Positions 1 through 49,553 of a stretch of DNA of 64,000 bases are shown one piece after another; position 1 is the first letter of the stretch; each line of letters opens with the position of its first letter. A program made the translations under genes and the position numbers. The DNA comes from Rhizophagus irregularis (lineage: Eukaryota; Glomeromycota; Glomeromycetes; Glomerales; Glomeraceae): positions 2,170,001 through 2,234,000 of the forward strand of contig NC_089430.1 in NCBI RefSeq assembly GCF_026210795.1, read 5' to 3'. Under the pieces are notes generated by a model. That model saw only the letters and a list, made by a program, of their open reading frames with translations, made no database searches and had not been told where the DNA came from.

Positions 1-3000
1 ATTTTATGGAATAACTTGGGATTCAGAAATAAAAAATTATATGATGGTTTTGAATAATAAATGTAAAGAGTGTAATAAAATGTGTAATTCAATATACTTT
101 CGACAAAATTTTGAAAATTGGACTAGTAGTAATGATAATATCGATAAATCTATTCAAAATACACAGTTATTAGCTCATAAAGATGTAAGAATAGCATTAG
201 AATGGATACCTTATGATAGATTGTATAATATTAAATATATTTCAAAAGATGAGTTTGGTAAAATATATAGAGCAAATTGGACTGATGGATATATAAGATA
301 TGATAAAAGTTATGAAAGTTGGAATAATAATAATCAAAATTGGATAAGAGAAGGATGCAATATGTTTGTGAATTTGAAGAGTTTAAATACTCCAAATATT
401 CTTACATTAGAATTTATAAATAAGGTATAAGTTAATTACATAACAAAATTATAAATATTTTATTTTCTAATATATTATTACATTTGTAGATTAAAATTGA
501 ACATGAATTTTATGGTATAACTTGGGATTCAGAAATAAAAAATTATATGATGGTTTTGAATAATAAATGTAAAGAGTGTAATAAAATATGTAATTCAATG
601 TACTTTCAACAAAATTTTGAAAATTGGACTAGTGGTAATGATAATATCGATAAATCTATTCAAAATACACAGTTATTAGCTCATAAGGATGTAAGATTAG
701 CATTAGAATGGATACCTTATAATAAATTGTATAATATAAAATATATTTCAAAAGATGAGTTTGGTAAAATATATAGAGCAAATTGGACTGATGGATATAT
801 TTGGTATTGGGTTAATAAAAATCCAAATTGGATAAGAGAAGGATGCAATATGTTTGTGAATTTGAAGAGTCTAAATACTCAAAATATTCTTACATTGGAA
901 TTTATAAATAAGGTATAAGTTTAAGTTAATTTGTACATAACAAAATTATAAATATTTTATTTTTTTAATATATTATTACATTTGTAGATTAAAATTGAAC
1001 ATGAATTTTATGGAATAACTTGGGATTCAGAAATAAAAAATTATATGATGGTTTTGAATAATAAATGTAAAGAGTGTAATAAAATGTGTAATTCAATATA
1101 CTTTCAACAAAATTTTGAAAATTGGACTAGTGGTAATGATAATATCGATAAATCTATTCAAAATACACAGCTATTAGCTCATAAAGATGTAAGAGTAACA
1201 TTAGAATGGATACCTTATGATAGATTGTATAATATTAAATATATTTCAAAAGATGAGTTTGGTAAAATATATAGAGCAAATTGGACTGATGGATATATAA
1301 GATATTATGAAAGTTATGGAAGTTATCAAAGTTGGAATAATAAAAATCAAAATTGGATAAGAGAAGGATGCAATATGTTTGTGAATTTGAAGAGTTTAAA
1401 TACTCCAAATATTCTTACATTGGAATTTATAAATAAGGTATAAGTTAATTACATAACAAAATTATAAATATTTTATTTTCTAATATATTATTACATTTGT
1501 AGATTAAAATTGAACATGAATTTTATGGAATAACTTGGGATTCAGAAATAAAAAATTATATGATGGTTTTGAATAATAAATGTAAAGAGTGTAATAAAAT
1601 GTGTAATTCAATGTACTTTCAACAAAATTTTGAAAATTGGACTAGTGGTAATGATAATATCGATAAATCTATTCAAAATACACAGTTATTAGCTCATGAA
1701 GAGGTAAGTGTAGCATTAGAATGGATACCTTATAATAGATTGTATAATATTAAATATATTTCAAAAGATGAGTTTGGTAAAATATATAGAGCAAATTGGA
1801 CTGATGGATATATAATATATGATAAAAGTTATGAAAGTTGGAATAATAAAAATCAAAATTGGATAAGAGAAGGATGCAATATGTTTGTGAAATTGAAGAG
1901 TTTAAATACTCCAAATATTCTTACATTGGAATTTATAAATAAGGTATGAGTTTAAGTTAATTACATAACAAAATTATAAATATTTTATTTTTCTAATATA
2001 TTATTACATTTGTAGATTAAAATTGAACATGAATTTTATGGAATAACTTGGGATTCAGAAGCAAAAAATTATATGATGGTGTTGAATAATAAATGTAAAG
2101 AGTGCAATAAAATATGTAATTCAATTCGCTTTCAACATAGATTTATAGACTGGACTAGTGGAAATGATAATATTGATGAATTTATTAAAGATACTCAGAT
2201 ATCAGCTCATAAAGATGTAAAGGAAGCATCAGAATGGATACCTTATGATAGATTATATAATATTGAATATATTGCAAAAGATGAAGTATATAGGGCAAAT
2301 TGGATTGATGGAAATATAAATTATTTTAATTATAGTGGAAGTTGGAATAATGAAAATCAAAATTTGGTAAAAAAGGATAAAAATATATATGTATTACTGA
2401 AAGTTATAGATTATTCAAAAAGTATTACATCTGTACTTATGAAAGAGGTATTATAAATTTTTTATTTGATAATATAATTATAAAATTTTAAATGTTTTAT
2501 TAATAAAATATTTATTTATAGATTAATAAACTTTTTGGAATTACTTGGGATCCAGAAACAAAAAATTATATGATGGTTTTAAATAATAAATGTAAAAAGT
2601 GCAATAAAATATGTAATTCAATTTTCTTTCAACAGAAATTCATAGATTGGACTAGTGAAAATGATGATATTGATAAATTTATTCAAAATACTCAGTTATC
2701 AGCTCATGAGAATGTAAGGGAAGCATTAGAATGGATACCTTATAATACATTTCATGATATTAAATATATTGCAAAAGATGAATTTGGTAAAATTTATAGA
2801 GCAAATCGGACTGATGGATATATTTGGTATTGGGATAATAAAAATCAAAATTGGATAAGAGAAGGATGCAATATGTTTGTGAATTTGAAGAGTTTAAATA
2901 CTCCAAATATTCTTACATTAGAATTTATAAATAAGGTATAATTTTCAGTTAATTACATAACAAAATTATAAATATTTTACTTTTTAAATATATTATTACA

Positions 3001-4424
3001 TTTGTAGATTAAAATTGAACATGAATTTTATGGAATTACTTGGGATCCAGAAACAAAAAATTATATGATGGTTTTAAATAATAAATGTAAAAAGTGCAAT
3101 AAAATATGTAATTCAATTTTCTTTCAAAAGAAATTCAAAGATTGGACTAGTGAAAATGATGATATTGATAAATTTATTCAAAATACTCAGTTATCAGCTC
3201 ATGAGGATGTAAGGGAAGCATTAGAATGGATACCTTATAATAGATTTCATGATATTAAATATATTGCAAAAGATGAATTTGGTAAAATTTATAGAGCAAA
3301 TCGGACTGATGGATATATTTGGTATTGGGATAATAAAAATCAAAATTGGATAAGAGAAGGATGCAATATGTTTGTGAATTTGAAGAGTTTAAATACTCCA
3401 AATATTCTTACATTAGAATTTATAAATAAGGTATAATTTTCAGTTAATTACATAACAAAATTATAAATATTTTACTTTTTAAATATATTATTACATTTGT
3501 AGATTAAAATTGAACATGAATTTTATGGAATTACTTGGGATCCAGAAACAAAAAATTATATGATGGTTTTAAATAATAGATGTAAAAAGTGCAATAAAAT
3601 ATGTAATTCAATTCGCTTTCAACAGAAATTCATAGATTGGACTAGTGGAAATGATGATATTGATAAATTTATTCAAAATACTCAGTTATCAGCTCATGAA
3701 GATGTAAGGGAAGCATTAGAATGGATACCTTATAATAGATTTCATGATATTAAATATATTGCAAAAGATGAATTTGGTAAAATTTATAGAGCAAATCGGA
3801 CTGATGGATATATTTTATATTGGGATAATAAAAATCAAAATTGGATAAGAGAAGGATGCAATATGTTTGTAAATTTGAAGAGTTTAAATACTCCAAATAT
3901 TCTTACATTAGAATTTATAAATAAGGTATAATTTTCAGTTAATTAGTACATAACAAAATTATAAATATTTTACTTTTTTTAATATATTATTACATTTGTA
4001 GATTAAAATTGAACATGAACTTTATGGAATAACTTGGGGTTCAGAAACAAAAAATTATATGATTGTTTTGAATAATAAATGTAAAGAGTGCAATAAAATA
4101 TGTAATTCAATTCGCTTTCAACAGAAATTCCTAGATTGGACTAGTGGAAATGATGATATTGATAAATTTATTCAAAATACTCAGTTATCAGCTCATAAAG
4201 ATGTAAAGGAAGCATTGGAATGGATACCTTATGATAGATTTTATGATATTGAATATATTGCAAAAGGTGGGTTTGGCAAGGTATACAGAGCATATTTAAA
4301 TGATGGATTTATAACTGATTGGGATGATTTAAATAAAAACTGGAAAAGAATTAGCAATGATATATTGGTAGCTCTGAAAAGTTTGGATAATTCAAAAAAT
4401 ATTGCATCAGAATTTATTAATGAG
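1..4424 (+). repeat. Tandem array of nine kinase N-lobe exons, period about 0.5 kb
   Basis: Each unit is an exon of 414-450 nt plus a near-identical short intron. The exon begins with the kinase beta4-beta5/hinge segment (FYGITWDxETKNYMMVL), runs straight into a C-x2-C-x3-C motif, then WTSGNDxIDxFIQ, EWIPY, the glycine-loop region, the beta3 lysine region and alpha-C (EFINK), and ends at a phase-0 donor AAG|GTATAA. Copies 1-4 form one subgroup (LLAHKDV, ISKDEFGK, NWTDGY), copies 6-8 another (LSAHExVREAL, FHDIKYIAKDEFGK, NRTDGY). Copy 5 is divergent and lacks three codons at the glycine loop (AKDEVYRA). Copy 9 is the only one with a canonical loop. Most length differences lie in an Asn/Tyr-rich stretch after TDGYI. 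Confidence 0.9.
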
Positions 4425-6148
4425 GTATTACCTGATTAATTTAATTTATTATTTATGGTCATAAAATTTAAATTATTAGTTTTACTAAAATATTTATAAT
4501 ATTACATACACATAGATTATATTACATAATAAGGTAGGAATGGAAAATTTTGCGATTGTTGGATTTTATGGGATAACACAAGATCCAAAAACGAAAAATT
4601 ATATAATGGTTTTAGATTATGCAGAAGATGGAAGTTTACGAAATTATTTAGATAAAGAATATAAAAAGCTTACTTGGAATAAAAAGTTCGATTATTTACG
4701 ACATATTACAAATGGACTTGAATGTATTCATGAAAAGGAATTAATTCATCGAGATTTGCATATTGGAAATATATTAAAGTTTAAATATAAAACTGCTATA
4801 ACTGATATGGGACTATGTAAACCTGCAAATTATAATGCATTAGAAAACGTAAAAAACAACATATATGGTGTTTTGCCTTATATAGCCCCTGAAATTTTAA
4901 GAGGAAAAAATTATACCAAAGCTGCTGATATTTATAGTTTTGGTATAATAATGTATGAAGTGATTTCTGGATTACCTCCATATTATGATTTAGGCCATGA
5001 TAAAAATTTGGCAATAAAAATTTGCCAAGGTCTAAGACCGAGATTTAATATTAAAGTACCACAGTTAATTGTACATTTAATTAAAAGGTGCTTAGATGCC
5101 AATCCATCAGAACGGCCAATAACAAAAGAAATAAATAATATTTTACGAAGATGGCAAAATGGATCAAATGAAGAGTTACAAACACAAATTAAGGAAGCAG
5201 ATGAAATAAATGAAAATTCATTAAATAGCATTATACCTTCATCTGATTTAGGGATATCATATAATACGCATTCAGAAGCTATTTATACAAGTAGGTTACT
5301 CGATTTTAATAATCTACCTAAACCAAAAAATTCCGATGATTATTATGAACAAAATGATAACATAATAAGCAAGGAATATTCAGGTATTAATTAAGTATTT
5401 GTTAACTGTTACTTTTTAAATATAATTAGAAGTATGATTACAATAATAATAATCTTCAATTTATTAAATAGAATCTTTACAACTTAACTTTTCTCAATTG
5501 AATATTAATACGAGCGGTAAATAACTTACTTATGTAATGACTTTAATATACAAAATACTAACAATAAAGATCAATTCATTAAATAGAATCTTTGCAAATC
5601 AACATTTCTCAATTAAATATTAATGAAAATGGTAAATATTCCACTTATAACATCAAAAATATTTATAAAATACTAATAACAAAGTTTCAATTTATTAAAT
5701 AGAATCTTGTCAAATCAATATTTCTCAATTGAATATTAACGATAATGGTAAATATTACACTTATACTGTAACTTTAAAAATATTAGTTTATAATACTAAC
5801 AATAAAGTTTCAATAGAATCTTGTCAAATCAATATTTCTCAGTTGAATATTAATGAGAATGGTAAATATTACACTTATAACTTTAAAAATATTAGTTTAT
5901 AAATACTAAAAATAAGTCTTAATTTATTAAATAGAACCTTCATAAATCAATATTTATCGATTGTACGATAATGAAGATAGTAAATATTAATTTCTGCATA
6001 ATAACTTCATGTTTTTTTCGTTCGTAATTAATATAATCTTTTTTTTTTCTTAGGTCAAAATAGCGAATCAGGAAGCAAAAGAAAAAATTATTTCTTAAGT
6101 CAAAATAACGAATCTGAGAGTGAAAGAAAAAAAACTAAAATAGAATAA
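1..6148 (+). CDS. Tandem N-lobe protein kinase gene, 5' end outside window
   Basis: Predicted exons: <1-424, 490-912, 988-1437, 1503-1943, 2016-2447, 2522-2935, 3008-3430, 3503-3925, 4002-4424 (nine N-lobe repeats, phase 0/0), 4516-5383 (C-lobe, ends phase 1), micro-exons 5472-5516, 5587-5631, 5703-5747 and 5817-5861, terminal exon 6054-6148. All join in frame to at least 1664 residues. Introns between repeats are 65-91 nt, GT...TTTGTAG. The C-lobe exon has HRDLHIGN (catalytic Asp and Asn), DMG in place of DFG, APE and DIYSFG, so a Ser/Thr or TKL-type kinase fold is clear. Copy nine (4002-4424) has GGFGKVYRA and VALK, the intact nucleotide-binding loop and lysine; the other copies have DEFGKIYRA or worse. 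The tail is hydrophilic, with a repeated SQNxES motif. Whether all repeats enter one mRNA is inference; alternatives are exon choice, or a short functional gene (copy nine onward) behind an exon graveyard. Confidence 0.75.
5460..5979 (+). repeat. Tandem array of five 45-nt micro-exons
   Basis: Five units of about 115 nt. Each holds a 45-nt segment bounded by AG and GT: 5472-5516, 5587-5631, 5703-5747, 5817-5861 and 5935-5979. Read in phase 1/1, the first four encode ESLQ/CxINxSQLNINxN-like peptides with no stop and can be joined in any number. They link the phase-1 donor CAG|GTATTA at 5383 to the terminal exon at 6054. The fifth copy carries an in-frame TAA at 5943-5945 and is presumably dead or skipped. 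The flanking intron pieces are also repeated, so the whole exon-plus-intron unit was duplicated. Confidence 0.75.
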
Positions 6149-7763: not shown

Positions 7764-7929
7764 ACTTGGTTTCCTATCATTATCCAACTTCCTATCATGA
7801 TCATTTTTTTTATTTTTTGTCTCATTATTTTTCATCTCATATTACTTCTCATTATTCGTCTCCCATTATTTCTATTACATTTTTTCATTTTCCATTATTT
7901 TTTTTTTCTCTCCTGTTTACTTCCCATCA

Positions 7930-9075
7930 TTTTTTTTGTCTCTCATCACTTCCTTTCGTTTCCCATCACTCCTTTTTGTCTCCCATCACTTCGTTTTGTC
8001 TCTCATCACTCCTTTTTGTTTCTCAACATTTCTTTTTGTCTCTCATCACTTCCTTTCGTCTCCCATCACTCCTCTTTGTCTCTCATCACACCTTTTCGTC
8101 TCCCATCACTCCTCTTTGTCTCTCATCACACCTTTTTGTCTCTCATCATTTCTTTTTGTCTCTCATCATTTCTTTTTGTCTCTCATCATTTCTTTTTGTC
8201 TCTCATCATTTCTTTTTGTCTCTCATCATTTCTTTTTGTCTCTCATCATTTCTTTTTGTCTCTCATCATTTCTTTTTGTCTCTCATCATTTCTTTTTGTC
8301 TCTCATCATTTCTTTTTGTCTCTCATCATTTCTTTTTGTCTCTCATCATTTCTTTTTGTCTCTCATCATTTCTTTTTGTCTCTCATCATTTCTTTTTGTC
8401 TCTCATCATTTCTTTTTGTCTCTCATCATTTCTTTTTGTCTCTCATCATTTCTTTTTGTCTCTCATCATTTCTTTTTGTCTCTCATCATTTCTTTTTGTC
8501 TCTCATCATTTCTTTTTGTCTCTCATCATTTCTTTTTGTCTCTCATCATTTCTTTTTGTCTCTCATCATTTCTTTTTGTCTCTCATCATTTCTTTTTGTC
8601 TCTCATCATTTCTTTTTGTCTCTCATCATTTCTTTTTGTCTCTCATCATTTCTTTTTGTCTCTCATCATTTCTTTTTGTCTCTCATCATTTCTTTTTGTC
8701 TCTCATCATTTCTTTTTGTCTCTCATCATTTCTTTTTGTCTCTCATCATTTCTTTTTGTCTCTCATCATTTCTTTTTGTCTCTCATCATTTCTTTTTGTC
8801 TCTCATCATTTCTTTTTGTCTCTCATCATTTCTTTTTGTCTCTCATCATTTCTTTTCGTCTCTCATCACTCTCCTCTGTCTCCCATCACTTCTTTTCGTC
8901 TCCCATCACTCCTCTTCGTCTCCTATCACTTCTTTTTGTCTCTCATCATTTCTTTTTGTCTCTCATCACTTCCTTTCGTCTCTCATCACTCTCCTCTGTC
9001 TCCCATCACTTCTTTTCGTCTCCCATCACTCCTCTTCGTCTCCTATCACTTCTTTTTGTCTCCCATCATGTCCTA
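7930..9075. repeat. 20-bp minisatellite, 35 perfect copies in the core
   Basis: The unit TCTCATCATTTCTTTTTGTC is perfect from 8141 to 8840 (35 copies). Flanks at about 7930-8140 and 8841-9075 hold diverged units (CCCATCACT, CTTTCGTC). In the 3' flank an 80-bp block (8861-8940) recurs at 8981-9060. Because 20 is not a multiple of three and the unit has no stop on this strand, all three frames stay open and repeat the same 20-residue peptide every 60 nt. The long ORFs here (7766-9259 and two overlapping ones) are therefore composition artefacts. Confidence 0.95.
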
Positions 9076-19825: not shown

Positions 19826-21358
19826 TTATGGCTCAGACATTGTATCCCTTGGCGGTTTCATTCCCTTCATTCTTCTTGCCTTATTGTACCTATAAACAAC
19901 AAATACAATAAATCCAAGAGTAGTTACCAGAATAATAATAGGAATAACTATAGTTCTTATAACAGTTGTGTCGGTTAAATAAATTTTATTATATTGCTCC
20001 ACTTCGGTAAAATTTGCATAATCTCCAATTTTATAAATATGAATGTCATTACTAGCTTGTTTGGTAGTTCCTTGACCTAATAAAAGGAATTAAAATGTTG
20101 TTATAGAGAAATGTTTTATATTTATGGCCTAAAAATAATATATATTAACAATATGTACCAAAAGCTATAAACATATGATCATCATGAAATGTCGCAGTAT
20201 GACCTCTATAAGGAGCTCCAATTATAGTTCCATTTCCATGATACCATTCTCGTGTTTTTAAATCTAAGACCACATAATAATTTTCTACTGGTAATTTCGA
20301 AGCTTTAACTCCCCCGAATACAATAATTCTATTATCATTTGCTTTATTAAAATAAGAGTATTTAATCAGGATCCGAGTATCTTAAAAAAAATCATTTAAA
20401 TACTTACTTAAAATAGCTGTATGATAATATCTTTGTTCTGGTGGATTTTTGGTTTCCTATTTTAATATATTATAAGAAATTTGACAAATTATAATTTTAA
20501 CAGTAATAGCAAGTAATCACGTACCCATTTATTCCAATTACAACTTTTAGTATTATAGACATCTAACTTATATTAGTTAAAAGAAAATGTGTTAATCATA
20601 ATACATATAATACCTGTAATAAATAAATAAATAGTTTACAGTTTACGTACGTTGGCCATATTCATTAATCCATTATCACTATTTCCACCAATATAAACTA
20701 TTTCACCAGTATCAGATAAAAAAGTGGCAGTATGTCCCTCCCTCTTAATTATTGTATTATCAATTGTGCCATAAGTCCAATTACTTGTAGTACTATTGAA
20801 AATATTCATGGTGTCATAACGTATATATAAATTATCACCTAACTTTCCTCCTCCTCCACCACCAAAGAAATATATTGTATTATTTTTATTATTATTATCT
20901 GCAACTGCGCTCAAAAATCTTCTCCTTTCAATCTCATTGTTTGGTACATTCATATTTTTCCATGCTAATGGTAATTGTGTCGTATTAAGAATATATACTA
21001 AACTTTCTGTATTTTGAAGAGTACCCATATCTCCCCCAAAAAAGAAAATCGATTCTTTAAATTTACCAAAGACTACAGTTGTTGCTCCATAATGTTCTGG
21101 TACTGAATCGCCCAAAGTTACATTTACAAATGGCAATGAACCTTCGGTATTATTAAATGATTTTGAAATATCAAGATAGAAGAAATCATTTGTTAAAAGG
21201 CTTTCATTATTTTGACCGCCAAGATAATATATTTTCGTTCCAATTAATGCTGCTGTATGAAAAATTCTTCCTTTTGGAACAACATATTGTTGGCAATTTA
21301 TATTAGCAAAGATTTGAAAAAAAGTTATATATAGAATCAAGTGTTTTAGATTTTTCAT
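19826..21358 (-). CDS. Kelch-repeat / galactose-oxidase-like membrane-anchored protein
   Basis: Five predicted exons on the minus strand: 20651-21358, 20525-20566, 20408-20456, 20159-20341 and 19826-20076. They join in frame to 410 aa. Residues 1-22 are a signal peptide (HLILYITFFQIFANINC). Kelch blades follow, with double glycines in YYLGGQ, FFFGGD, YFFGGG, VYIGGN and VFGGV, each with downstream Trp/Tyr strands (WKNM, NWTYG, NWNKW, EWYHG). The last exon gives one transmembrane helix (IVIPIIILVTTLGFIVFVV) followed by a basic RYNKARR stop-transfer and a short cytosolic tail. The topology is an extracellular beta-propeller on a single anchor. Many NxS/T sites fit secretion. A TATATAAT-like element is about 36-43 nt upstream. 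The role is probably surface binding; no catalytic residues are identifiable. Confidence 0.85.
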
Positions 21359-33639: not shown

Positions 33640-34215
33640 CCTGCAATATTTTTTTTACAATATTTATTTTACGCAATATTTTTTACTTTTTTTTCGCAAT
33701 ATTCTTTCTACATTATTTTTGCTTTTTTTCGCAATATTTTTTTACAATATTTATTTTGCGCGACATTTTACTTTTTTTAAAATATTTTTTTACAATAATT
33801 TTTTTTTTACTTTTTTTTACTTTTTTTGCAATATTTTACGCGATATTTTTTCTTTTTTTTACTTTTTTTTCGCAATATTTTTTCTACATTATTTTTACTT
33901 TTTTTCGCAATATTTTTTTACAATATTTATTTTGCGCGATATTTTACTTTTTTTACAATATTTTTTTACAATAATTTTTTTTTTACTTTTTTTACTTTTT
34001 TTTGCAATATTTTACGCGATATTTTTTCTTTTTTTTTTACACTTTTTTTGCAATATTTTACACGATATTTTTACTTTTTTTATTTTTTTTGCAATATTTT
34101 ACGCGATATTTTTACTTCTTTTACAATATTTTTTTACTTTTTTTTTTGCTTTTTTTGCAATATTTTACAATATTTTCGCAATTTATTTTTTTACAATATT
34201 TCACTTTGTTTTTAT
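33640..34215. repeat. AT satellite with TTTTTTGCAATATTTTACGCGATATT units
   Basis: Irregular tandem units of T-tracts, (G/A)CAATATTT and ACGCGATATTT. Two long blocks (about 33720-33850 and 33900-34020) are near-duplicates of each other. Several overlapping Phe-rich ORFs here follow from lack of stops in T-rich sequence. Confidence 0.75.
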
Positions 34216-41826: not shown

Positions 41827-44800
41827 TTAGATTGCACAATCTAAACATTCAGAATAATTGTGGTCTTTTGTAACATCAGTAAGTATTTTAGATGAATATT
41901 CAGAATTGAGGTCTTTTGTAAGATCAGAAAGTAATTGATATTTATAAATATCTACTTTTCTACCTTTCTTTAAGTGCGAAATTCTATAATTTTCTGCTAT
42001 TTCTACTTCATATGAATACTTAGTAGTTGAAATTAACAAAAGTGATTCAAATAATCCAGTTACATTAGGTCTGTTATTTGGATTTGGATTCCAACATCTT
42101 TTCATTAAGTCTATATAACTTTTTGGTGCTTCTTGTTCATTTATATCAGGTCTAACTCCGTCACAGATATCTAGTGTTAAAAGTTCATCATGCGCACAAT
42201 TGGAAAAAGGTTGTTTGCCAGTTGCTACAAAATACATAATCATACCCATACTATAAATATCTGCTGCTTGAGTATATGGATTTCCTCTTAGTACTTCAGG
42301 AGCCATATAAGGCAAAACTCCATAAATATTTGTTTTTTCTTCATTATCAACTTTTTTACATAATCCCATATCTGAAATATAAACATCTGCTCCAATAGAA
42401 GGATTAGTAAATAGTATGTTTCCCGTATGAAAATCATGATGAACCATCTGATTGTCATGAATTTCTTTAAGACCCTTGGTAATACTGCACACCTTTTGTA
42501 GTTTCTTTTTCCAATCAAAACATTCATAATTTTTATTAAAACTTAACCATTTGCCAAAATTTCCACCTCCTGCATATTGAAGAACAATAATATAACGATC
42601 TGTATTAATATCTTTGGATATTCCATATACTGTTAGAATATTACTATAATTTAATTTAGTTGAATATGCATCAACCTATAAAAAATTCATTATTTTTTAG
42701 TAATACAAATTTTTTACTAAATTAAAATCGTTTAATAAAAATTCAAAGAAATATATACCTCATTTAGAAATTCAGTAATAAGATTTTGTGAGTTGTTTAA
42801 ACATTTTAAAGCAACTGATTTAACTGGCTCTCTTATATAATATCCATTTTGAACTTTATTATATAATGGACCATCCATCCATATTGCTGAATATACTTCA
42901 GCAAAACCACCACTTCCAACTTCATTAATGTCACAAAATTGACCGTATGGTATCCATTCAAATACTATGTCATTATGATTATTTGCTTTTAATTGCATTT
43001 TATGAACAAAATCATCAATTTTATCGTCTTTACTTGCAAAATCTGTGAATATTAAAGAATCATTTTGAACTAAAATATAATCATTTGTATCTGGTTTTTG
43101 AGATATTCCATACAATACAAGAAATGATCTTATCTCTGTTGAATATTTTTTAGCCTAAATATAAACAAAAAAAGATAAATATGTATGTTAAAAGATAGAA
43201 TTGCTTGCAATATTTGTAAATGTTTTATACCTCATTTATTACAAATTCTACGGAATTTTGTGAATTATGTAAGCATTTTAAGAGAACACTTTTATTTGAA
43301 TCTCTTGTATAATTTTCCTCCCGTATACCATTCTTGTAGTGTAATGGACCACCTCTCCATATTGCTGAATATAATGTTATAGAGCCATTTTTGTTCATTT
43401 CATTAATTTCATTAAATTGACTGTATGGTATCCATTCTAATACTATATTATCATGTTCAGTTTTTAATTGCATTTCTTGAATGAAATCATCAATTTTTTC
43501 ATTTCCACTTGTCCAAATCAAATAATTTCGAACCAAAATGTAATCGTTTGTATCTGGATTTTGAGATATTCCATAAAACTTATGAACCCTTTTACCAAAT
43601 ATTATACTTGAATTTGAATATCTTTTGACCTAAGGTACAACAAAAGAGATGAGTATATTTCATTAAAGAAGTATTATATTAATTAAATTTTATACCTCAT
43701 TTATTACAAATTCAATAAGAACTTGCAAGTTATGTAAACATTTTAAAGTAACTTTTTTATTTGAATCTCTTGTATAATTTTTACTCAATGGACCATTTCT
43801 CCATATTGCTGAATATATTGTTATAGAACCATTTTTGTTCATTTCTTTAATTTCATTAAACTGACTGTATGGTATCCATTCAAATATTGTATCATAAGAA
43901 TTATGGAGCATTTCTTGAATAAAATCATCAATTTCCTTATTTCCACTTATCCAATTTACGAATGTTGAAGAGTTATTTTGAACTAAAATATAATCATCTG
44001 TATGTGGATTTTGAGATATCCCATAAATCTTAATAAGACAACTTTTTCCAAATATTTTGTTTGAATATTTTTTAACCTAAGGCATAATAAAAGAGATGAG
44101 TCAGTATACCTCATTAAAAAGTACTACTTACTAATTAAATTTTATACCTCATTTATTACAAATTCAATAGAATAATGCAAGTTATGTAAACATTTTAAAG
44201 CAACTTTTTTATTATAATCTTTCTTGTATAATGGACCATCTTTCCATATTGCTGAGTATATTTCTATAGAGCCATTTTTGCTCATTTCTTTAATTTCATC
44301 AAATTGATTATATGGTATCCATTCAAATAATGTTTCATAAGAATTATAGAGTATATCGTGTACATAGTTATCAAATTCTTTATTTCCACTTATCCAATTT
44401 GTGAAATTTAAAAAATTAGCCTGAACTAAAATGTAATCATTTGTATCTGTATTTTGAGATATTCCATACAATACAGGAAATGACCCTTGTTTTGTTAAAT
44501 ATTTTTTAGCCTAAATAGAAACATGTGTTACAATATTAAAAGAAATTAAAAAATAACAGTAGAAATAATATACCTTATTTATTAAGAAGTCAATTGTATT
44601 TTGTGAGTTATGTAAACATTTTAAAGCAACTACATTATTTGAAATTCTCATATGAATTTTACTCCGTTTATTCTTATATAATGGACCATCTCTCCATATT
44701 GCTGAATATAATGTTATAGAACCACTTTTGCTAATTTCTTTAATTTCATTAAACTGATTGTATGGTATCCATTCAAATATTATATCATTATATTTAGTTT

Positions 44801-47800
44801 TTAATTGCATTTCTTGAATGAAATTATCAATTTTTTTATTTCTACTTGTCCAGATAAAACTATTTTGAACCAAAATGTAATCATATGTATCTGGATTTTG
44901 AGATATCCCATAAATCTTAAGACACCTTTTATCAAACATTTTGCTTGGATATTTTTCGACCTAAGATACAATAAAAGAGATTAGTATATTTTATTGAAAA
45001 GCTCTTATTAATTAAATTCTATACCTCATTTATTATAAATTCAATAGGATCTTGCAAATTATGTAAACATTTCAAAGTAACTTTTTTATTTGAATCTCTT
45101 GTATAATTTGCACTCCACTTGTCATTCTCCTTGTGTAATGGACCATCTCTCCATATTGCTGAATATATTGTTATAGATCCACTTTTGCCCATTTCTTTAA
45201 GTTCATTAAACTGAATGTATGGTATCCATTCAAATACTACATCATTATTGGTTTCAACTTTTAATTGCCTTTTCTCAATAAAATCATCAATTTTTTTATT
45301 TCCACTTATTTGATTTGTGAGACTTAAAAAATTATTTTGAACCAAAATATAATCATTTGTATTTGGATGTTGGGATATTCCATACAAAACAAGAACTTCG
45401 TTGTTATTATCTAGATATTTTTCAGCCTAAACATAAGCAAAAGGGATTAAAGTTATTATATTAAAAAAAAATTAAAAATAACTGCGGAAATATTGTACCT
45501 TATTTACGAGGAATTCAATGGGATTCTGTGAATTATGTAAACATTCTAAAACAACTACTTTATTTGAAATTCTTGTACAATTTTTACTCTGTTTATCCTC
45601 TATGTATAACGGACCATCCCTCCATATCGCTGAATATGCTGTTGTAGAATCACCTCTACTCATTTCTTTAATTTCGCTAAACTGACTGTATGGTATCCAT
45701 TCAAATAGTATACTATCATTATATTTAGTTTTTAATTGCATACTTCGAATGAAGTCATCAATTTTTTCATTTCCACTTGCCCATGTAAAATAATTTTGAA
45801 CCAAAATGTAATCATTTGTATCTAGATTTAGAGATATCCCATAAATCATAAGACCCCTTTCTCCAAATATTGTGCTTGAATATATTTTGACCTAAGTAAG
45901 GTATAATAAAATAAATGAATATATTTCATTAAAAAGCACTATATTAATAATTAAAATCTATACCTCATTCATTAAAAATTCAATAGGATCTTGCAGGTTG
46001 TGTAAACATTTTAAAGCAACTTTTTTATTTGAATCTCTTGTATAATTTTCCTTCATACTATTCTTGTAGTGTAATGGACCATCTCTCCATATTGCTGAGT
46101 ATATTGCTATAGAATCATCTTTGCCCATCTCTTTAATTTCATGTAATTGACTGTATGGTATCCATTCAAATAATATATCATTATATAATTTCCTTTTTTT
46201 AATGAAATTATCAAGTTTTTCATTACCGCTTGTCCAGTTAATAACTAAAATGTAATCATTTGTGTCTGGATGTTGAGATATTCCATATAATACAAGAAAT
46301 TCTTCATTTTTCGTCAAATATTTTTTAGCCTAATATAAAAAAAAGATATAAATATATTGTATTAAAAAAAAAATAGAATAACTGTAAATATATTATACCT
46401 CATTTATTAAAAATTCAATAGAACCTTGTAAGTTATGTAAACATTTTAAAACAACTTTTTTATTTGAATCTCTTGTATAATTTGCACTCCACTTATCATT
46501 CTCCTTGTGTAATGGACCATCTCTCCATATTGCTGAGTATATTGTTATAGAATCATCTTTGCCCATTTCCTTAATTTCATTAAATTGATTATATGGTATC
46601 CATTCAAATAATATATTATTATATTTAGTTTTTAATCGCATTCTTTGAATGAAATCATCAATTTTTTCATTTCCACTTGTCCAGATAAACCAATTTTGAA
46701 CCAAAATGTAATCATTTGTATTTAGATTTTGAGATATCCCATAAATTCTGAGACCTAATTCTCTAAATATTGTACATGAGTATTTTTTGACCTAAGGTAA
46801 AATAAAAGAAATAAGTATATTTCATTAAAAAGCTCTTATTAATTAAATTTTATACCTCATTTATCAAAAATTCAATAGGATCTTGTAAGTTATGTAAACA
46901 TTTTAGAGCAACTTTTTTATTTGTATCTCTTGTATTATTTTCGCTCCACTTAATATCCTTGTATAATGGACCATCCTTCCATATTGCTGAATACATTGTC
47001 ATAGAACCATTTTTGCTCATTTCCTTAATTTCATTAAACTGACTGTATGGTATACATTCAATTATTGTATTACAAGAACTATGGAATATTTCTTGAATAA
47101 AATCATCAAGTTTTTCATTTCCACTTATATTTATAGATTTATTTTGGACCAAAATATAATCACTTGTATCTGGATTTTGAGATATCCCATAAATTCTGAG
47201 ACCTAATTCTCTAAATATTGTACATGAGTATTTTTTGACCTAAGGTAAAATAAAAGAAATAAGTATATTTCATTAAAAAGCTCTTATTAATTAAATTTTA
47301 TACCTCATTTATCAAAAATTCAATAGGATCTTGTAAGTTATGTAAACATTTTAGAGCAACTTTTTTATTTGTATCTCTTGTATTATTTTCGCTCCACTTA
47401 ATATCCTTGTATAATGGACCATCCTTCCATATTGCTGAATACATTGTCATAGAACCATTTTTGCTCATTTCCTTAATTTCATTAAACTGACTGTATGGTA
47501 TACATTCAATTATTGTATTACAAGAACTATGGAATATTTCTTGAATAAAATCATCAAGTTTTTCATTTCCACTTATATTTATAGATTTATTTTGGACCAA
47601 AATATAATCACTTGTATCTGGATTTTGAGATATACCATACAAAACAAAAACTTCATTATTATTAGCTAGATATTTTTCAGCCTAAACATAAGAAAAAGAG
47701 ATAAGTGTATTATATTAAAAATGAAATTAAAAATATTTGCATAAATATTTTACCTTATTTATTAGGAAGTCAATGGGATTTTGTGAGTTATGTAAACATT

Positions 47801-49509
47801 TTAAAGCAACTACTTTACTTGAAATTCTTTTATAATTTTTACTCTTTTTAGACTCCTTATAGAATGGACCATTCCTCCATATTGCTGAATATGTTGTTAT
47901 AGAATCACCTCTGCTCATTTCTTTAATTTCGCTAAATTGACTGCATGGTATCCATTCAAATAGTATACTATCATTATATTCAGTTTTTAATTGCATACTT
48001 TGAATAAAATCATCAATTTTTTCATTTCCACTTGTCCATGTAAAATAATTTTGAACCAAAATATAATCATTTGTATCTAGATTTTGAGATATCCCATAAA
48101 TTATATGACCCCTTTCTCCAAATATTGTACTTGAATATTTTTTGACCTAAGGTACAATAAAAGAAATGAGTATATTTAATTTAAAGCGCTATATTAATTA
48201 AAATTTATACCTCATTCATCAAAAATTCAATAGGATCTTGCAAGTTACTATGTAAACATTTCAAAGTAACATTTTTATTTGAATCTCTAGTATAATTTTC
48301 CTTCATAATATTCTTGTAGTGTAATGGACCATCTTTCCATATTGCTGAGTATATTGTTATAGAATCATCTTTGCCCATTTCTTTAATTTCATTAAACTGA
48401 CTGTATGGTATCCATTCAAATAATGTTTTATTATATTTAGTTCTTGATTGCATTCCTTTAATGAAATCATCAATTTTTTCATTTCCACTTGTCCGGATAA
48501 ACCAATTTTGAACCAAAATGTAATCATTTGTATCTGGATTTTGAGATATACCATACAATACATAAATTGATGCATATTCTGTTGAATATTTTTTAGCCTA
48601 ATTATAAACAAATGAGTTAAATGTATTATATTAAAAATGAAATTAAAAATAATTGCAGAAATAAAATTTTACCTTATTTATTAGGAAGTCAATGGGATTT
48701 TGTGAGTTATGCAAACATTTTAAAGCAACTGCTTTATTTGAAATTCTTTTATAATTTTTATTTTTTTTATACTCCTTACTATATAATGGTCCATTCCTCC
48801 ATATTGCTGAATATGTTGTTATAGAATCAATTTTGCTTGTTTCTTTGATTTCATTAAACTGAGTGTATGGTATCCATTCAAATACTACATCATTACGGGT
48901 GTTTCCTTTAAATTGCCTTTCTTTAATGAAATCATCAATTTTTTCATTTCCACTTATCCAATTTACGAGGGTTAAAGAATTATTTTGAACCAAAATATAA
49001 TCATTTGTATCTGGATTTTGAGATATACCATACAATTTAAGAAATGGCCCAAATTTTGTTGAATATTTATATTTTTTAGACTAAACATAAACAAAAAAGA
49101 TAAATGTATTATATATATTAAAAAAAATTAGAAATAATTGCAAAATATATTGTACCTTATTTATTAGGGAGTCGATAGGATTTTGTGAATTATGTAAACA
49201 TTCTAAAGCAACTTTTTTATTTGAAATTCTAGTATAATGTTTATCCCGTTTACTCTTGTGTAATGGACCATCTCCCCATATTGCTGAATATACTGTCATA
49301 GAACTACTTTTGCTGATTTCTTTAATTTCACTAAACTGACTGTATGGTATCCATTCAAATACTATGAAATCATGGTCTACAACTTTTAATTGCCTTTCTC
49401 GAATAAAATTATCAATTTTTTCATTTCCGCTGGTCCAATTTTTTAATTTATTTTTTAAATGTTTTAAATAATATTTTGAATATTCGATGCCTATATTTTG
49501 CGAAGACAT
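41827..49509 (-). CDS. Complete tandem N-lobe protein kinase gene, 16 exons
   Basis: Predicted exons (5' to 3'): 49156-49509, 48673-49080, 48211-48597, 47754-48146, 47304-47681, 46856-47239, 46399-46791, 45964-46329, 45499-45891, 45025-45426, 44574-44960, 44148-44510, 43696-44076, 43231-43629, 42759-43154, 41827-42675. All boundaries are phase 0 with GT/AG; I saw no internal stop, giving 2210 aa if all are used. The first exon starts MSSQNIGIEYSK and lacks the hinge segment. The internal exons repeat YGISQNPDTNDYILVQ, WTSGNEKIDDFI, FEWIPYSQF, a glycine-loop region, VALKCLHN and EFLINE. Only the last N-lobe (42759-43154) has a canonical loop, GSGGFAEVYSA. The C-lobe exon has HHDFHTGN (Arg of HRD is His), DMG for DFG, APE and DIYSMG. 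A TATAAATA lies 37 nt before the ATG. Use of all exons in one mRNA is untested. Confidence 0.75.
42759..49509 (-). repeat. Array of fifteen kinase N-lobe exons, period about 0.45 kb
   Basis: One 5' exon plus fourteen internal exons of 363-408 nt separated by about 55-80 nt introns. Two exon types largely alternate by their first residues: type A begins A(K/E)KY and runs into VLYGIS; type V begins V(K/E)(K/I/R)Y, has a longer FGxxxxx stretch and runs into IYG or FYG. The order after exon 2 (SKKY, A-like) is A,V,A,V,V,A,V,A,V,A,V,V,A. The glycine loop is replaced by K(N/S/D)(G/D)SITIYSAIW in most copies, while the beta3 Lys (VALK, VTLK, VLLK) survives except in exon 1 (VALE) and exon 9 (VVLE). 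Confidence 0.9.
46741..47636. repeat. Perfect 448-bp tandem duplication inside the exon array
   Basis: 46741-47188 and 47189-47636 read identically by eye over one exon, its intron and the start of the next exon. The sequences diverge at 46740/47188 (ATCCC) versus 47636 (ATACC). This makes two consecutive type-V exon starts and two near-identical N-lobes (INISGNEKLDDF, TIIECIPYSQF). Confidence 0.9.
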
Positions 49510-49545: not shown

Positions 49546-49553
49546 TATTTATA
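49546..49553 (-). promoter_or_regulatory. TATA box of the 16-exon kinase gene
   Basis: TATAAATA on the minus strand, 37 nt before the ATG at 49509, followed by GGG and an AT-rich leader. The spacing matches the 36 nt of the secreted gene at 19260 and supports 49509 as the true gene start. Confidence 0.55.

Follow-up and report, generated by a model that had tools for sequence, protein, structure and literature searches.

A Rhizophagus irregularis gene that may encode fifteen kinase N-lobes in a row and one C-lobe

Can the N-lobe of a protein kinase be strung into a long array with only one C-lobe at its end? This question is raised by a locus of the arbuscular mycorrhizal fungus Rhizophagus irregularis, located in a stretch of 64,000 nucleotides (hereafter the window; NC_089430.1, positions 2,170,001 to 2,234,000, or C2:2170001-2234000 in the searched genome of 146.7 Mb and 32 contigs). 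An initial annotation, made from the letters alone, had described one gene here with 16 exons, GT/AG borders in phase 0, no stop and a product of about 2210 amino acids (aa). Our reading of the minus strand from 49509 to 41827 bore this out: 16 GT-AG exons, every junction in phase 0, encode 2210 aa with 0 internal stops, starting with the ATG at 49509 and ending with the stop codon at 41827. The 15 introns are 63-83 nucleotides (nt) long, have the form GTA...TAG and all lie between codons. The TATA box predicted 37 nt before the first ATG is also present as TATAAA, but its distance is 44 to 39 nt. The features of this array are as follows.

49548..49553, minus strand: TATAAA box
49156..49509, minus strand: exon 1; start, helix-like segment, beta1-beta3 and alpha-C start of N-lobe 1
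48673..49080, minus strand: exon 2, repeat unit
48211..48597, minus strand: exon 3, repeat unit
47754..48146, minus strand: exon 4, repeat unit
47304..47681, minus strand: exon 5, repeat unit, recent copy with exon 6
46856..47239, minus strand: exon 6, repeat unit
46399..46791, minus strand: exon 7, repeat unit
45964..46329, minus strand: exon 8, repeat unit
45499..45891, minus strand: exon 9, repeat unit
45025..45426, minus strand: exon 10, repeat unit
44574..44960, minus strand: exon 11, repeat unit
44148..44510, minus strand: exon 12, repeat unit
43696..44076, minus strand: exon 13, repeat unit
43231..43629, minus strand: exon 14, repeat unit
42759..43154, minus strand: exon 15; completes orphan N-lobe 14 and opens the complete kinase (beta1-beta3, alpha-C start; glycine loop GSGGFAEV)
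41827..42675, minus strand: exon 16; remainder of N-lobe 15, hinge, kinase C-lobe (HHDFHTGN, SDMG, APE) and stop

Each of exons 2-15 carries the alpha-C end and beta4-beta5 of one lobe, followed by the helix-like segment, beta1-beta3 and alpha-C start of the next; these structural labels were taken from homology to exon 15, which is 55% identical to exon 2 and 50% to exon 11. Because exon 1 is only the second half of a unit and exon 16 is the first half plus the C-lobe, the exons add up to 15 whole N-lobes with no leftover halves. The last of them belongs to the complete kinase, so 14 N-lobes are orphans. Neighbouring units are 52-72% identical, except for exons 5 and 6, a recent copy that lies in adjacent 448-bp repeats and is 90% identical. 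Moreover, the exon starts between 42675 and 49080 fall into two largely alternating classes (GC... and GT...), and therefore this array may also have grown by two-exon steps.

A Pfam search of the 2210-aa product detected a single kinase stretch, at residues 1873-2139, which matches PF07714 (PK_Tyr_Ser-Thr) with an E-value of 8.5e-43 over profile positions 5-257 of 258; no kinase stretch was reported before residue 1873. Annotation by Pfam would accordingly list a protein of this kind as just a plain kinase. The terminal kinase, formed by exons 15 and 16, contains HHDFHTGN, SDMG and APE motifs, with HHD at the HRD position. Proteins of known structure that resemble it by sequence include EGFR, RIPK1, MAP3K9 and B-Raf.

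We then asked how widespread this design is in the genome. A 32-base unit motif, allowed up to 3 mismatches, gave 537 genome matches and its reversed control gave 0; with an internal exon as the protein query, the best 150 of 4655 first-look candidates were scored. Among the matches listed, unit exons occur in at least 62 clusters on 15 contigs, and at least 44 clusters have two or more units. Contig C16 holds 41 of the 62 clusters among the matches listed, nearly all between 2.4 and 4.7 Mb. We read 21 arrays, including the window array; the other 20 were chosen from the match lists, not at random. Of the 21, 17 have a kinase C-lobe after their last unit; the C-lobe of the L011 array contains a frame break. 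The L014 array has its C-lobe in pieces, and that of the L008 array lies several kilobases off, separated by other open frames. Of 247 junctions, 231 gave a phase-0 GT-AG join, the 16 failures falling in seven arrays. A complete chain from start codon to C-lobe exists in 8 of the 21 arrays (products of 912 to 2983 aa), several others being cut by the ends of the fetched stretch; the L020 array has 21 N-lobes. Exon 1 begins with M[SFL]SQ[ND] in 12 of the 14 arrays with a readable start, and TATAAA occurs 44-50 nt before the ATG in 11 of 14 (for L018, one of the three without it, the upstream sequence was limited to 19 nt). Since the arrays are paralogs, the common start and TATA box are partly a matter of inheritance. 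The arrangement had initially been taken as one odd gene; its design is confirmed, but it is one of many arrays in this genome, belonging to at least two subfamilies.

Some of the individual arrays deserve description. In L017 (3000-3777), two units share a single open frame of 259 aa and no intron separates them, which fits translation from unit to unit. We considered this locus as a natural record of complementary DNA, i.e., exact intron loss, and rejected it, because the junction is open but shortened and a plain deletion is equally likely. L019 together with L023 (C10) reads as a kinase-array-kinase gene, since a single open frame holds both a kinase C-lobe and an array unit. In L004 with L024 (C9, minus strand), the final unit exon extends in the direction of a large open frame with a GDSGC motif, so that the array is possibly fused to another output domain; Pfam assigned no family to this open frame at an E-value of 0.01. 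The final unit in the array of L005 (C16:3734500-3742000) with L025 is truncated and contains a stop; this array may be a string of N-lobes without a kinase, or else a decayed gene.

To compare orphan and terminal lobes, 199 unit exons (185 internal and 14 terminal) were aligned; they had been retained if both splice sites were found and no stop was present, and are therefore multiples of three by construction. All 14 terminal units retain the second loop glycine, against 3 of the 185 scored as internal, 169 of which have Asn in its place. Two of the three exceptions come from the window array and read SRGDS, while the third (GKGGFSTV, L011) is actually the last unit before the frame-broken C-lobe and was scored as internal in error. 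The terminal units of L011, L013, L014 and L018 also read GKGGF, meaning that the glycine loop is kept in all 18 terminal units read. Two other kinase residues largely persist in the internal units, the beta3 Lys in 177 and the alpha-C Glu in 163 of 185. The two classes also differ in their nearest relatives. Of the 185 internal units, 144 have their closest counterpart within the same array, against a mean of 10 and a maximum of 20 in 500 label shuffles. Among the 14 terminal units, by contrast, 12 are most similar to a terminal unit from a different array; that of the window array is one of the two exceptions. The nearest-unit and loop patterns together therefore distinguish two populations, namely loop-dead repeats subject to turnover on one side and, on the other, a catalytic end module seldom mixed with them. 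For the window gene, the count and order of 15 N-lobes and one C-lobe thus hold as first described, but the lobes are not equivalent: only the last one keeps its glycine loop, which points to one active-looking kinase behind 14 putatively non-catalytic N-lobes.

Next, codon models were fitted to the units within arrays, leaving out L007, which has too few units. The ratio of nonsynonymous to synonymous rates (omega) was 0.28-0.66 in the 20 arrays, and the likelihood-ratio test (LRT) against omega = 1 exceeded 3.84 in 19 of them; for the window array, omega was 0.45 with an LRT of 46.9. These values are approximate, as kappa was fixed at its free estimate and unit exchange was ignored. An alternative column filter gave omega of 0.31-0.58 in the 20 arrays, and a parsimony count over the same arrays gave a milder overall dN/dS of 0.63. 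In addition, about 39 stop-making changes would be expected under neutrality in the 13 internal units counted in the window array, and 0 were observed. The count of expected stops covered 11 arrays. The filter may have removed exons with stops from some of them, but took none from the window array. These codon-level results indicate that the units evolve under purifying selection, moderate in strength. The initial annotation's reading of this locus as an unusual but real coding gene is backed by this selection, by the common start exon and TATA position and by the paralogous arrays, with the full-length product as a prediction from sequence.

The window contains another array, which belongs to a different kinase subfamily (the second subfamily; that of the 16-exon gene is called type 1 below). 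A 495-bp tandem repeat at 319-4266 is part of this array, which occupies 1-5394 on the plus strand, starts about 1.5 kb upstream of the window (continuing in L028) and comprises 12 N-lobes and one C-lobe.

upstream of the window, plus strand: exon 1 and two more units
across the left edge to near 424, plus strand: a further unit
490-912, plus strand: unit
988-1437, plus strand: unit
1503-1943, plus strand: unit
2016-2447, plus strand: unit
2522-2935, plus strand: unit
3008-3430, plus strand: unit
3503-3925, plus strand: unit
4002-4424, plus strand: terminal unit
4516-5394, plus strand: C-lobe exon

From 490 onward, all 8 tested joins of this array have a phase-0 GT-AG solution. A genome search for second-subfamily units, in which the best 150 of 4382 candidates were scored, listed matches mostly on C2 at 4.8-5.9 Mb. 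Counts over the window's array and six further arrays of that type revealed a comparable position rule: the loop GG is present in 7 of 7 terminal units versus 3 of 54 orphans; the same 7 terminal units all have the alpha-C Glu, where Lys stands in 30 of the 49 orphans counted. Orphan loops often read DEFG or similar (judged by eye, without a count), and 51 of 54 orphan units have a zinc-ribbon-like CxxC...C segment. In L013 (2525-3439), the last two units of an otherwise type-1 array also have cysteine-rich, zinc-ribbon-like segments, which makes it a possible mixed array.

We further examined whether all orphan lobes could have a single origin. A tree was built without the loop columns from 92 half-unit rows, a random subset of 239 (22 rows whose half unit was not cut by the text rule were excluded), and type-1 orphans grouped with type-1 terminals (support 96); it rests on 87 columns, and the program flags few columns and long branches. 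Forcing all orphans together was 37.6 log-likelihood units worse, although the approximately unbiased (AU) test does not reject this topology (p 0.22). A single origin is thus disfavoured by the tree. Because loop loss differs between the subfamilies and the tree without loop columns separates them, separate origins are favoured but not proven, which suggests that the poly-N-lobe design arose more than once.

How, then, should the window gene be understood? On balance, we favour the explanation that all 16 exons are spliced into one 2210-aa poly-N-lobe kinase, whose 14 orphan lobes would serve as a binding array controlling the single C-terminal kinase. The sequence itself carries the frame, the splice sites, the selection, the loop loss in orphans with retention in terminal units, the many paralogous arrays and the turnover of units. 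Constitutive splicing would yield 14 N-lobes in a row followed by one complete kinase; short introns are suited to intron-by-intron removal rather than exon choice, and those of 63-83 nt fit such constitutive removal. The orphan lobes probably do not bind ATP and may have been kept as folded modules of beta-sheet plus alpha-C that form a partner-binding repeat array. Candidate partners are other kinases, contacted via the alpha-C/N-lobe dimer face, or client ligands, and their binding might recruit, block or activate the C-terminal kinase. Several kinases of the EGFR/RIPK1/MAP3K9/B-Raf type are regulated through N-lobe dimer faces, and for this reason we favour kinase-to-kinase contacts as the first partner. 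Unequal exchange would add or remove units and thereby change array length, which can happen without a frame break because every unit exon begins and ends between codons.

Several observations weigh against this explanation. No kinase C-lobe was found in the stretches read for the L004 and L005 arrays, and frame breaks occur in several arrays (L001, L008, L011 and L014). Omega = 1 is not rejected for the L008 array (LRT 1.8), and exchange between units violates the single-tree assumption of omega. In the window array, same-class introns are 0.80 identical, versus 0.80, 0.84 and 0.79 at codon positions 1, 2 and 3 (36 unit pairs); introns are thus close to codon positions 1 and 3, meaning that the lobes are kept, but loosely. 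A few orphan units retain loop glycines, such as one L013 orphan outside the alignment that reads GKGHF. Finally, AlphaFold gave exon 11 alone, with an alignment of 14 window exons, a mean predicted local distance difference test score (pLDDT) of 54, and only the beta1-beta3 part reached about 65-78. This poor model of one exon neither supports nor excludes a permuted module, and the folding of isolated lobes is a conjecture. The exon as a (permuted) folding unit is otherwise disfavoured, as the assembly of 16 exons into 15 whole lobes favours the canonical register.

A narrower form of the favoured explanation takes the WD/ANK/TPR arrays of fungal NLR-like receptors as its model: unit number and loop residues would diversify for recognition of self or partners, and the kinase would be the output. 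Unit turnover within arrays and the many array lengths agree with this idea. Among 128 columns counted site by site, 10 show a nonsynonymous excess at p<0.05 and 50 lean the opposite way at p<0.05; the strongest excess is at column 129, the loop tip (p 0.00027, about 0.03 after correction for 128 columns). However, this is the one column that survives correction, and recombination can mimic such a signal; we treat it as a lead. Furthermore, just 26 of 157 adjacent unit pairs in the 21 arrays, and 1 of 12 in the window array, are at least 85% identical over 100 aa. We therefore regard this form as conceivable but rather doubtful.

A main rival is that the array is a reservoir for alternative splicing, from which the cell picks a subset of symmetrical exons to make kinases with different or fewer upstream lobes, similar to clusters of mutually exclusive exons. 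All unit exons are phase 0-0 and any subset would stay in frame. Nevertheless, an internal exon consists of two half lobes, so that one chosen exon cannot swap a complete N-lobe, and nearly all orphan units are without the loop that a substitute catalytic lobe would need. The short introns also leave little room for putative selector structures. Taken together, such a reservoir seems unlikely. Less likely still is a selfish or neutral expansion, in which symmetrical exons multiply by unequal exchange and the extra lobes are tolerated passengers, kept in frame for the sake of the downstream kinase. The existence of frame-broken arrays, the wide variation in unit number and the window-array introns, as conserved as third codon positions, would all be compatible with it. 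Passengers, however, need an open frame only, yet omega is below 1, and internal units have near-invariant residues, including one Trp (185 of 185), the beta3 Lys and the EWIPY core (175-182 of 185 per residue). A loop signature that is consistent in orphans but absent from terminal lobes is also not random decay. Lastly, an assembly artefact or collapsed tandem kinases can be considered highly improbable, for although tandem repeats are prone to misassembly, neighbouring units of the window array are too divergent outside exons 5 and 6, multi-unit clusters are numerous among the matches listed, and the assembly is described as long-read and near-gapless (PMC10234402).

Regarding the origin of the poly-N-lobe kinase, the C-lobe separating one copy's hinge from the following copy's start may have been lost from a fused tandem kinase gene, creating a symmetrical exon that then multiplied. 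The window also contains an ordinary kinase gene:

58471-56908, minus strand: ordinary kinase gene with one N-lobe; its alpha-C has a donor site at the place matching the arrays, the acceptor being not pinned down

This donor site and the kinase-array open frame of L019 and L023 are both consistent with a unit exon arising out of adjacent, fused kinases whose intervening C-lobe was lost.

JAKs, plant tandem kinase proteins and obscurin/SPEG repeat whole two-lobed kinase domains, usually two. Like such tandem kinase and pseudokinase proteins, the window gene would place a dead kinase-derived module before an active kinase in one chain, and the degradation of one copy beside an intact one is seen here as loss of the second loop glycine in 182 of 185 internal units and its retention in every terminal unit. 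In contrast to them, N-lobes alone are repeated (15 in the window array and 21 in L020) with no C-lobe between, exons 2-15 being without a C-lobe segment; as the defining two-lobed repeat is absent, we keep this gene apart from the tandem (pseudo)kinases. Tandemly duplicated mutually exclusive exons (PMC9013439) are likewise tandem copies of one in-frame exon between constant ends, but one exon is used per transcript, whereas every array exon combines halves of two lobes and is limited to adding lobes. Variable-number repeats, one output domain and turnover within arrays are features shared with fungal NLR-like proteins whose WD/ANK/TPR repeats are highly conserved (PMC4986451). Unlike them, the 2210-aa product has no NOD (NACHT/NB-ARC) domain among its 9 Pfam matches at E-values up to 0.01, its repeat is half an enzyme domain, and identity is mostly below 85%.

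Large kinase expansions have been reported for R. irregularis, including an expansion of PF07714 (PMC6123716) and a total of 2,533 kinase genes (PMC10234402); the portions of these reports that we could draw on contain no N-lobe arrays (PMC6123716, PMC8647823, PMC10234402, PMC3886924). The window gene shares the fungus and the Pfam family of its terminal domain with these expanded families, but their ordinary members have one N-lobe and the window array has 15. The titles and abstract openings listed by our full-text searches of open-licence papers likewise describe no N-lobe array, and the poly-N-lobe architecture is, to our knowledge, without precedent. Kinase N-lobes are normally treated as inseparable from C-lobes, and long arrays under selection would, if our explanation is true, show the N-lobe as an independent binding repeat. 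They would then form a new class of repeat proteins, offering a handle on why this fungus has thousands of kinase genes, and a class hidden by domain annotation, since Pfam reports one ordinary kinase. As a more tentative proposal, the N-lobe alone could have become a recognition repeat at least twice in one fungal lineage, giving rise to a large receptor family of variable length, coupled to a kinase and possibly other outputs as well, with a logic like that of LRR/WD40 arrays but built from dead kinase parts.

Three other features were observed in the window.

7925-9069: minisatellite with a 20-bp unit, about 57 copies, several reading frames open
33679-34176: T-rich 176-bp tandem repeat of about 3 copies
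20636-21358, minus strand: Kelch-repeat protein with a signal-like start

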